Positions 19,080 through 32,882 of a stretch of 44,387 bases of DNA are shown here, in pieces. Source of the DNA: Candidatus Poseidoniaceae archaeon (GTDB lineage: Archaea; Thermoplasmatota; Poseidoniia; Poseidoniales; Poseidoniaceae); the NCBI GenBank assembly GCA_938084675.1, contig CALKGM010000041.1:1-44387 (forward strand), in the 5' to 3' direction. Under the pieces are notes generated by a model. That model worked only from the letters and a program-made list of their open reading frames with translations, was not told where the DNA came from and ran no database searches. Each line of letters begins with the position of its first letter. Positions within the stretch are counted from its first letter, which is position 1. A program made the position numbers and the translations under genes.

Positions 19080-19529
19080 TCAAACACGCCACGAAGCAAT
19101 ACTTTTGGGTGTCTCTCGACAATGCATAGCCACTAAACGTAACTGATTCCCATAGGTCGATTTGATATGGGGTTCAAGGGTTTCAAATGCCCACCTGGCT
19201 AAATTCTCGGCAGTTGGAATAAATGGGACTACAACCGTTCGATGGTCATCTCCCATGAGTTCACATGCTGCCTTCGCAGTTTCATCACCCTCATATACAA
19301 CAAAAGCATGGTCGATGACATCATGAATATGAACCGTTAGTAGATGGCTAATGTCTGAAAAATCCATCAGCATTCCTTCATCAGACACACCTTGCTGTGT
19401 AACAACATCTCCTTCAATTTCCGCTTCAAAACGATATCTATGACCATGCATATGCTTGCATTTAGATTTATGATTTGGGACTCTATGTCCGGTATCAGTC
19501 TCAATATATCTCCGAATGGTTGTTGTCAT
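19080..19529 (-). CDS. queD: 6-carboxy-5,6,7,8-tetrahydropterin synthase QueD
   Basis: 149 residues of the PTPS fold. The zinc ligands are H15 in TGHR and H28 and H30 in CKHMHGHRY, with catalytic Cys24. It makes 6-carboxy-tetrahydropterin from dihydroneopterin triphosphate, the second step towards preQ0. The ATG overlaps the queC-msrB stop as ATGA (19526-19529), so translation is probably coupled. It closes the operon folE-queE-queC/msrB-queD. Confidence 0.93.
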
Positions 19530-20686
19530 TGGTCTTCCTCCTCGTCAAATTTCAAAGAAGCCGAATTGATGCAGTAGCGCTCTCCTCCGTACTGTTTTGG
19601 TCCGTCTGGGAAAACATGACCGAGGTGAGCATCGCATTCATCACAACGTACCTCTATTCTGAGCATTCCATGGGTCCGGTCTTCAATTCTAAGGATTCCG
19701 GCGTCATGGTGTTCGGTATGGAATGAAGGCCATCCACAACCAGAATCAAACTTCATAGTCGATGTGAACAGTAATTTGTTACAGCAAATGCATAAATAAT
19801 CACCTGCTCTTTTTTCGTCATAGTATTCTCCGGTAAACGCCCGTTCGGTACCCGACTCACGTGTTACATGGAATTGTATTGGAGTGAGGCGTTCTTTGTA
19901 CTCAGCTTCTTTATGAATCCGTTCGGTGGCAAGGGCTGCTTGAAGAACAACCCCCCAACTGTCAACGTAGTCAATTGGGTCCTCACGGCCGATGGAATGA
20001 AAGGCCAATATTCGTTCAACGTCAGAACCTGTTTTACCACTACTCCTTCCGTCTGAATCAGGAGAATATGAGGTAATCGTACGAGAAAACACCTCTTCAA
20101 AATTTAAGTTCAAGTTCCCAATAGCGGATTCAGCATCCTTGAGAATTCCAGCCTTGTCCGATTCAAGATACGGTAGATAGAAGCTAACCGAGTCACTCCC
20201 CCAGTTCCCAATCGCAAATGCGTGATCTAATGCATTGTAAAATTCCGGCCTACAATCTGGGTAAATGGCATGGTCTCCGCTATGCACTCCAAGGGCAACA
20301 ACGGAACTACTACCGGTCTTTTCGCTCAGGGAAAGGGCAGTTCCATAGAGAAGAGAAGCAAATATTGCATTACGATTTGGGACAACAGTGGCTTTCATGG
20401 ACTCTTCTTCATAATGGCCTTCTGGAACATCTCCTCCGTTGACGAGTAAGTCACTTTCAAACAGACTAAAAGCGCTTTTCAGGTCAACGAACTTGTGTTC
20501 AATCTCATATTCGTGCTGACTTAGATATTCAACGAGGGATTTGGCTCGCTCTAATTCAACATGATGCTTCTGACCGTAATCAAACGAAAGACAAGTTACA
20601 TTGTAACCTTGGTGCAAAAGATGAAGCAAGAGGGATGAAGAATCCATACCTCCGCTTAGGGCCATTACTGCATTCTTTTTACGCAT
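19526..20686 (-). CDS. queC: QueC-MsrB fusion: 7-cyano-7-deazaguanine synthase joined to peptide methionine sulfoxide reductase B
   Basis: A single 386-residue frame with no frameshift. Residues ~5-245 are QueC: PP-loop SGGMDS (11-16), DYGQKH (36-41), [17 protein letters not shown] and [15 protein letters not shown]. Residues ~262-386 are Msr[21 protein letters not shown], zinc cysteines C299/C302 and C348/C351, SGCGWPSF with C317, and the catalytic RYCINSASL (C372). QueC turns CDG into preQ0 with ATP and ammonia; MsrB reduces methionine-R-sulfoxide. Family QueC has four zinc cysteines in a CX7CX2CX2C site. Here the positions are Ser208, Ser216, Thr219 and Asp222. The ATG has an exact GGTGA-4 nt site. 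Whether the QueC half is active is an open question, but its operon is otherwise complete. Confidence 0.93.
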
Positions 20687-20694
20687 CTAATCAC

Positions 20695-21354
20695 CTACAA
20701 TATGCCCATCCATTTGTGTGTTTGAAGGGAAAGCCTCCACTCAGGATGATCTTTGACAACTTGTTCTGTATGTGCGAAATTCTTACCGTTCCATTCAACA
20801 CTTTCAGACTCATGGTAACAAGGCTGCAAGAAATGGTGATTAAACCCTGTTTTGATTTCTTCATACATTTCCAAGGGCTGACCCACATATACGCATTTTA
20901 GTTCATCACCCGTTCGCTGTCGAAGTACTGAATTTGGATACAGTTGATCTTTTGGAGAAATACATACCCAGTCCAACAACCCTTCGGGAATTTCAATTGT
21001 GCCATTCGACTCTACTGACAAGTGATATCCCCTTGCCTTTAGTAATCGGTTTAGGGGCCAAAGATCGTTGAGCATCGGTTCTCCACCTGTGAATATGATG
21101 TTTTTAGTTGGATATTTGAGGACTTCACTTATGATGTCAAGAGCAGTCATTTCTGTAAATTCATCGAAATTCGTATCACACCACTCACATCGCAAGTTAC
21201 AAAGGCCAAAGCGAATGAAGACATGCGGAATTCCTGCGCGAAATCCCTCTCCTTGAACCGAATGAAATATTTCCACTATATTGTAATGGGTTGCAAGATC
21301 ACTAGGATTATCGACAACTTTAGTGCCTGCGATGCCGCAATTATTCGTATCCAT
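20695..21354 (-). CDS. queE: 7-carboxy-7-deazaguanine synthase QueE (radical SAM)
   Basis: 219 residues from ATG 21354, with GAGTGA 5-6 nt upstream. It has the radical SAM cluster CNLRCEWCDT and the family lead-in FHSVQGEGFRAGIPHVFIRF. The motif FTGGEPML and the late QPCYHES also fit. QueE rearranges 6-carboxytetrahydropterin to 7-carboxy-7-deazaguanine using SAM, Mg and a 4Fe-4S cluster. The folE stop lies a few nt upstream, and queC-msrB follows 8 nt downstream, so the genes are one operon. Confidence 0.93.
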   Translation of the reverse strand: MDTNNCGIAGTKVVDNPSDLATHYNIVEIFHSVQGEGFRAGIPHVFIRFGLCNLRCEWCDTNFDEFTEMTALDIISEVLKYPTKNIIFTGGEPMLNDLWPLNRLLKARGYHLSVESNGTIEIPEGLLDWVCISPKDQLYPNSVLRQRTGDELKCVYVGQPLEMYEEIKTGFNHHFLQPCYHESESVEWNGKNFAHTEQVVKDHPEWRLSLQTHKWMGIL

Positions 21355-21363
21355 TGATATCAC

Positions 21364-21939
21364 TCACAATGGTGGTTGTTGAATGAGTTTCATGAGTTCA
21401 TTCCTTGCTTCACTACGCTCAAAAAATACCCCGTTCATGGCGGATGTTGTCATGATTGCTTGTTGCTTAGCGACACCTCTGCATTGCATACATCCGTGGG
21501 CCGCCTCAAGAATTACGGCAGAACCTAGGGGTTTTAATTCACGTTCCAGGTCATCAGCAATTCCTTTCGTAATGCGTTCTTGGTTCTGGAGTCGTCGCGC
21601 ATGGAGTTCAAGAATACGAGCGAGTTTACTAATCCCAACAATTCGTTCTACGGGTATGTACGCAATGTGAGCCCTTCCATTGAAGGGCTGCAGATGATGC
21701 TCGCATGTTGATGTAAACTCGATATTTCTCAACAGAACAATTCCATCGTAACCCTCAGCATTAAACGTTGCATCTAGGAGTTCTCCAGCGTCCATCTTGT
21801 ATCCCGCAAAAATTTCATCCCAAGATTCAACTACCCTCTTCGGGGTATTTTTCAACCCCTCTCGGTCGCTGTTCTCTTCTCCCTCAATATAGGACAGTAG
21901 AGTCCTAACTGCATTCATGGCTTCATCTTTTGTCGTCAT
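21364..21939 (-). CDS. folE: GTP cyclohydrolase I (FolE type)
   Basis: 191 residues of type I GTP cyclohydrolase. The zinc site is CEHHLQPF with the later CMQCRG, and the core VGISKLARILELHARRLQNQER is intact. It converts GTP to dihydroneopterin triphosphate, the first step of preQ0 and pterin synthesis. Many archaea use MptA (FolE2) instead, so a bacterial-type FolE in this operon may have been acquired with the que genes. It begins 9 nt after the RHH gene. Confidence 0.95.
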   Translation of the reverse strand: MTTKDEAMNAVRTLLSYIEGEENSDREGLKNTPKRVVESWDEIFAGYKMDAGELLDATFNAEGYDGIVLLRNIEFTSTCEHHLQPFNGRAHIAYIPVERIVGISKLARILELHARRLQNQERITKGIADDLERELKPLGSAVILEAAHGCMQCRGVAKQQAIMTTSAMNGVFFERSEARNELMKLIQQPPL

Positions 21940-32805: not shown

Positions 32806-32882
32806 GGGCTCGTGGTCTAGGGGTTTATGACGTTGCCTTGACATGGCAAAGATCGAGAGTTCGATTCTCTCCGAGCCCACCA
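32806..32882 (+). tRNA. tRNA-Val (anticodon GAC), 3' CCA encoded
   Basis: Acceptor GGGCTCG pairs with CGAGCCC at 32872-32878. The D-arm is GTC/GAC. The anticodon stem TTGCC/GGCAA encloses the loop TTGACAT, so positions 34-36 are GAC, reading GUC and GUU (Val). The T-arm GAGAG/CTCTC holds the loop TTCGATT. The discriminator is A (32879) and CCA follows in the DNA (32880-32882). There is no intron. Confidence 0.95.

Follow-up and report, generated by a model that had tools for sequence, protein, structure and literature searches.

The closest described protein is the 'AANH-MSRB' fusion of a 2018 review (PMC6211008), where it is said to be unique to archaea and is given as UniProt A0A2D6JNB0. 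In the available text of that review the AANH domain is assigned to ThiI and contains Cys162, two further cysteines are labelled CysR334 and CysA389, and the adenylation substrate, X, is left undetermined. This was the only paper found in the open-licence literature to bear on a fusion of QueC with MsrB. For QueC itself, the available text of PMC13329287 describes zinc as a requirement for function, and we found no report of a zinc-free QueC in the open-licence literature. The archaeosine pathway is taken here as laid out in the available sections of PMC6884629.

The window analysed here is a stretch of 44,387 nucleotides, one contig of the 1.94 Mb genome of a Candidatus Poseidoniaceae archaeon. 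The features of interest are given in Table 1. The initial annotation had described one 386-residue frame joining QueC to a complete MsrB, with four zinc cysteines, a resolving-type C317 and a catalytic C372, inside a folE-queE-queC-queD operon. This description was borne out: there is no internal stop, both halves match their Pfam profiles, all the named residues are present, and profile matches identify folE, queE and queD around the fusion.

Table 1. Features of the que operon and of the QueC-MsrB protein in the window
Feature	Residues	Position	Strand	Remarks
queD		19080..19529	minus	PTPS, E 4e-25; 4-base overlap with the end of the fusion gene
queC-msrB fusion gene	386 aa	19526..20686	minus	no internal stop
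MsrB (SelR) domain	267-381	19544..19888	minus	
MsrB cysteines	299/302/348/351, 317, 372			zinc, resolving and catalytic, respectively
Interdomain region	232-266	19889..19993	minus	predicted helix 244-266 (AlphaFold2)
QueC domain	1-250	19937..20686	minus	Pfam QueC match at 6-231
Former zinc site, QueC half	203-225	20012..20080	minus	same length as in zinc-bearing relative L146
QueC motifs	11-16, 37-44, 102-106, 142-145, 207			SGGMDS, YGQKHHVE, VPNRN, YPDC and Y207, respectively
queE		20695..21363	minus	radical SAM with CxxxCxxC; best NCBIfam QueE model below cut-off
folE, GTP cyclohydrolase I		21364..21939	minus	TIGR00063, 200 bits (cut-off 181.6)

The Pfam QueC match has an E-value of 5e-40 (137.6 bits against a cut-off of 22) and the SelR/MsrB match, which spans the domain as tabulated, has an E-value of 2e-48 and is above its cut-off. 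Against the NCBIfam equivalog models, the MsrB half scores 171.6 bits with TIGR00357, above the cut-off of 113.05, and the QueC half scores 132.6 bits with TIGR00364, below the cut-off of 150.3. The QueC half contains all four catalytic motifs, which are nearly universal among the QueC rows (SGGxDS, 145/145; YxQxHxxE, 143/145; VPxRN, 144/145; and YPDC, 145/145). Y207 is taken as the counterpart of E. coli Y189, assigned through the TCY motif of gammaproteobacterial rows. It is invariant in 20 aligned fusions, as are C372, C317 and the four zinc cysteines of the MsrB half.

An AlphaFold2 model of the fusion (20 sequences) has a mean pLDDT of 82.1 and a pTM of 0.74. Around the helix predicted between the two domains, block means of pLDDT are 91-94 (residues 241-270). 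Prediction is poor for the loops at about 71-110 and 131-160, where much of the active site lies. In a Foldseek search with the model, MsrB structures ranked at the top, followed by the QueC structures 3bl5 and 2pg3 and then by other PP-loop structures.

The gene order is folE-queE-queC/msrB-queD, with every gene on the minus strand; queD scores 79.2 bits with TIGR03367, below the cut-off of 89.25. The genome also encodes TgtA (425.4 bits, above the cut-off of 350). TGT is present in 55 of the 59 genomes searched, and all 59 contain a match to an ArcS homologue, the query being taken from a relative (G016) whose protein scores 214.8 bits with NF040592, below the cut-off of 440. Because TgtA and an ArcS homologue are both present, archaeosine is the likely end product of the preQ0 made by this operon. 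In three genomes of genus g13 (G047, G048 and G051), QueC and MsrB were not found in genome searches, and a TgtA-type TGT and the ArcS homologue are present. This suggests that they salvage preQ0 or a related base. Elsewhere in the window, a tRNA gene at 32806-32879 on the plus strand is the sole Rfam match at the gathering threshold.

Searching the 59 genomes, the window's own included, with the whole fusion protein gave matches in 54. Within the window's genus (30 genomes, own included) the fusion is full length and in one frame in 25, partial in three and without a match in two. In other genera QueC is fused to MsrB, has msrB as a neighbour, or is found with msrB absent. A phylum-wide search covered 389 genomes, 355 of them with a match, and a contig scan contributed the best 80 of 593 further loci. 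After filtering, the set comprised 118 distinct QueC rows of the Poseidoniia type, of which 74 are fusions, 30 have msrB next to queC and 14 have no msrB. Two of the adjacent rows are ambiguous, one being a fused gene interrupted by N (L038) and the other stopping within msrB (L129).

The search for this architecture proposed in the initial annotation thus recovered it many times in relatives, and the fusion is both conserved and widespread. Assembly error at the junction, which had been named as a possible refutation, is excluded: besides the genomes of the same genus, an orthologue with 95% identity (L002/L087), genera of both families and a genome that is a single 2.1 Mb contig (G073) all have the in-frame junction. 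The wider searches also added L102 (AH-273-F07), whose title does not describe it as a MAG. The accompanying idea that close relatives carry two separate genes holds in part, since some relatives do have separate genes, which lie side by side; the window's own genus showed no such case. The distance from the YPDC cysteine to the resolving cysteine is usually 172 residues and is 158 in 21 of the 74 fused proteins; the shorter version results from a 14-residue gap in the linker, with the frame retained.

Contigs titled Phycisphaerae (L106) and Rhodobiaceae (L124) bear a Poseidoniales operon and are probable binning errors in public genomes. One genome of the same class (G203, family f3; locus L182) carries a Poseidoniales-type folE-queE-queC, likewise zinc-free, with msrB and queD absent from the stretch examined. 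The other five listed f3 genomes gave weak matches. It is possible that this operon was acquired by transfer.

The QueC half has no zinc site, a feature that the initial annotation did not mention. The motif C(x)8CxxCxxC is absent in the window's QueC and in 118/118 Poseidoniia rows, and among the 145 QueC rows it is present in only 14, each of them bacterial. The positions of the four cysteines are occupied by S206, S216, T219 and D222, an assignment that follows from the equal length of the motif in L146. The 20 aligned fusions all have S206, S216 and D222, with either Thr or Ser at position 219. A zinc-free motif region is also found in 13 bacterial rows, 11 of them titled Planctomycetes, and there was no MsrB match beside any of the 13 in the stretches examined. 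The zinc motif is absent in 79 of 80 viral QueC loci (L206-L285, the best 80 of 596), which have at most one Cys within the motif window; these loci were drawn with patterns from this QueC subfamily and do not describe viral QueC at large. The QueC of Rhodococcus phage Finch retains the zinc cysteines. Since the Planctomycetes rows and many viral loci are also zinc-free, the loss of zinc is not tied to MsrB. The idea that the zinc site of MsrB compensates for that of QueC was rejected, as the cysteines are also missing from QueC without a linked MsrB.

There is a second type of zinc-free motif (e.g. TSYKPYPSGNSDYKSASSVERIEAF), which marks a large viral clade that includes the cultured Flavobacterium phage immuto (L286, examined in addition to the 80 loci). 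In a quick tree each of the two zinc-free motifs belongs to a clade of its own, with zinc-bearing rows alongside, suggesting that the zinc site may have been lost twice. When viral rows are included, the Poseidoniia rows do not form one clean group, and three viral rows and one bacterial row are placed next to or between them. Exchange of queC between Poseidoniia and viruses is therefore possible. The N-terminal half is classed here as a zinc-free member of the QueC family that probably works like QueC. Because PMC13329287 states a requirement for zinc, the activity of the zinc-free form is an assumption here. A zinc-free clade that retains the catalytic motifs makes this requirement testable with natural sequences.

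SelR was found in 47 of the 59 genomes (own included), always at the que operon, and no MsrB turned up elsewhere in these 59. Co-location was judged by eye from coordinates; one contig starts within msrB, with queD next (G025), and one gene is gapped (G009). Among 88 genomes at least 85% complete, MsrB is present in 74 and MsrA in 74. In G409 a second MsrB fragment lies at the end of a contig. The MsrA gene of the window's genome is on a different contig (C27), unlinked to the que operon. MsrA is absent in 6 of 7 genomes that have QueC and lack MsrB, in comparison with 7 of 74 that have MsrB; the former tally leaves out G408, an MsrB-less genome of the 88. Fisher's test, in which kinship is ignored, gives p = 0.001 over the full set of 88 and p = 3e-5 over the genomes with QueC. 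A tree of 50 of these genomes contains only two independent MsrA/MsrB pairs on supported branches and four on all branches. Two to four pairs cannot reach significance after correction for kinship, so the joint loss of MsrA and MsrB is suggestive only and we rejected it as an established fact. Exceptions are G033, in which MsrA is present and MsrB absent, and the three g13 genomes, in which MsrA is kept and both QueC and MsrB are absent. A SelR-domain protein is also found within the structure of the Tetrahymena mitochondrial ribosome (PDB 6z1p, chain BL), which places an MsrB-type domain with the translation machinery.

Where queC and msrB are separate they are closely spaced. The msrB start could be measured in 28 of the 30 adjacent cases: 13 have a candidate start with a 4-base overlap with queC, and in 27 the candidate start lies from -20 to +3 relative to queC. 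Loss of the queC stop therefore readily explains the fusion. A joined tree of QueC and MsrB (102 rows) requires two changes between fused and adjacent, with three rows of the fused clade split again (L042, L043 and L181). The most economical reading of this tree would be a single fusion plus a single fission. A quick tree of QueC only requires 12 changes for 'fused', three of them forced by starred branches, and seven changes for 'no msrB', two of them forced. The disagreement between the joined and QueC-only trees suggests that genes were likely exchanged between lineages. In the best tree the QueC rows without MsrB sit among MsrB-linked rows and are most simply losses. A second, independent fusion with a different MsrB subfamily was considered because the MsrB of genus g8 is shorter. 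It was rejected, as the short type branches beside and within long-type rows of the same operon in a quick tree.

Taken together, the data make it reasonably likely that this is a bifunctional protein in which a zinc-free QueC that makes preQ0 and an ordinary MsrB of general repair, once operon neighbours, have been fused. The QueC half would use ATP and ammonia to convert CDG, supplied by FolE, QueD and QueE, into preQ0, and the preQ0 would feed TgtA and an ArcS-type enzyme to give archaeosine in tRNA. The MsrB half is predicted to reduce Met-R-sulfoxide by means of C372, C317 and an outside thiol donor. As the sole MsrB found in the genome it would work alongside the unlinked MsrA, and it is probably the ordinary methionine-repair enzyme of the cell. 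In this sequence of events msrB would have been a separate, closely spaced gene between queC and queD until the queC stop was lost and the two frames became one. The benefit of fusion is most likely to be co-production or stability and not a shared reaction. Against general repair, the absence of MsrB from any other locus in the 59 genomes and the persistence of the fusion with a shortened linker suggest some tie between MsrB and QueC.

The initial annotation had suggested that MsrB might protect the oxygen-sensitive QueE or a product. More broadly, MsrB could act as a dedicated guardian that repairs oxidized methionines of QueC, QueE or other enzymes of the pathway and thereby keeps preQ0 synthesis possible in oxygenated surface water. 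The confinement of MsrB to the que operon in 47/47 MsrB-bearing genomes and the presence of fusions in both families fit this idea, and two methionines of QueC, Met14 of the ATP loop and Met97, close to VPxRN, are invariant in the 20 aligned fusions. Additionally, FolE, QueE and QueD are slightly richer in methionine with msrB than without it (3.08 versus 2.90%, 2.50 versus 1.79% and 3.65 versus 3.27%, respectively, as raw differences), and Poseidoniia QueC contains 2.36-2.96% methionine in comparison with 1.44% in zinc-free bacterial and viral rows. The guardian idea predicts that active-site methionines prone to oxidation would accompany MsrB. However, both methionines are equally kept in 14/14 Poseidoniia QueC rows without MsrB, and the Met14 and Met97 positions are conserved in 12/13 and 13/13 zinc-free bacterial rows and in 78/79 and 79/79 viral rows. 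Protection of the QueC active-site methionines by MsrB thus has no support. The methionine content of the QueC core is no lower without MsrB (2.52%) than in the fusions (2.36%), QueC without MsrB recurs at several places in the tree, and MsrB tends to vanish together with the unlinked MsrA. There is no clear support for protection of QueE or a product, and we regard the guardian role as unlikely. Since on the best tree MsrB is missing from several lineages that keep QueC, and six of seven such genomes also lack MsrA, although with few independent cases because of kinship, we favour general repair, with moderate confidence. A further suggestion, which we also hold to be unlikely, is that natural QueC enzymes of an archaeal order, of Planctomycetes and of many viruses work without the zinc that they are said to require, the site having perhaps been replaced on two separate occasions, and that in Poseidoniales the fusion to MsrB lets the supply of archaeosine respond to methionine oxidation.

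The stop between the two genes may also have been lost by chance, leaving two independent enzymes with no benefit from being joined. The tight or overlapping spacing of the unfused genes, the three rows that split again on the joined tree and the existence of QueC rows without MsrB are consistent with this. However, 74 of the 118 distinct rows are fused, across both families, and the frame is still kept in the 21 of 74 fusions with the shorter linker, which makes a purely neutral fusion improbable. Least probable by far is that the N-terminal domain is a ThiI-type AANH domain of a tRNA sulfurtransferase, as in the 2018 review. The PP-loop fold is common to both, a ThiI structure is found by Foldseek at an E-value of 1.6e-4, and there is a weak Pfam ThiI match (E 0.0026, residues 5-67, 17.8 bits, below the cut-off of 20.5). 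Against this, the Pfam QueC match is far stronger, the QueC structures outrank that of ThiI and the other PP-loop structures, the four QueC catalytic motifs are all present and the gene is in a preQ0 operon.

Comparison with the described fusion bears on the novelty of the pairing, which the initial annotation did not know. As in AANH-MSRB, there is an N-terminal PP-loop domain and a C-terminal MsrB, and when compared by published positions, cysteines 162, 334 and 389 correspond to 145, 317 and 372 here, with spacings of 172 and 55 in both proteins and an offset of 17 throughout. This pair of spacings is found in 53 of 74 fused proteins. As 55 is common among MsrBs (most rows of the MsrB tree), 172 is the discriminating distance. 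The equal spacing suggests that the 2018 protein is probably this QueC-MsrB fusion, that its AANH domain, read there as that of ThiI, is QueC, and that substrate X is probably CDG, the substrate of QueC. The pairing was thus most likely reported before, with its N-terminal substrate unassigned in the available text. The fusion at the present locus is confirmed and conserved, has very probably been described already with its N-terminal domain assigned otherwise, and stems from a QueC lineage whose lack of zinc was unexpected. It very probably gives a function to the N-terminal half of the published protein. These marine archaea form an abundant order of the surface ocean in which the fusion is common, and it offers a clean case in which to ask why two enzymes that share no known reaction are joined in a single chain.

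Among the other known systems, the QueC half shares its catalytic motifs, the Tyr of the zinc region, the operon partners and the fold with canonical QueC (PF06508 cluster 1 in the available text of PMC13329287). It differs in having no zinc cysteines, in being fused to MsrB and in scoring below the TIGR00364 cut-off. The MsrB half is 54% identical in a structural match to the zinc-type (TIGR00357) E. coli MsrB 6sym and has all of its zinc and redox cysteines, but lies C-terminal to QueC and is encoded in a preQ0 operon. Finally, the PP-loop fold is shared with the QueC-like defence enzymes Cap9 and QatC (Foldseek matches 9nto, E 1.5e-6, and 9y01, E 6.5e-5). These have a variant zinc motif and defence genes as neighbours in the available text of PMC13329287, whereas the QueC described here has no zinc motif and is surrounded by genes for preQ0.
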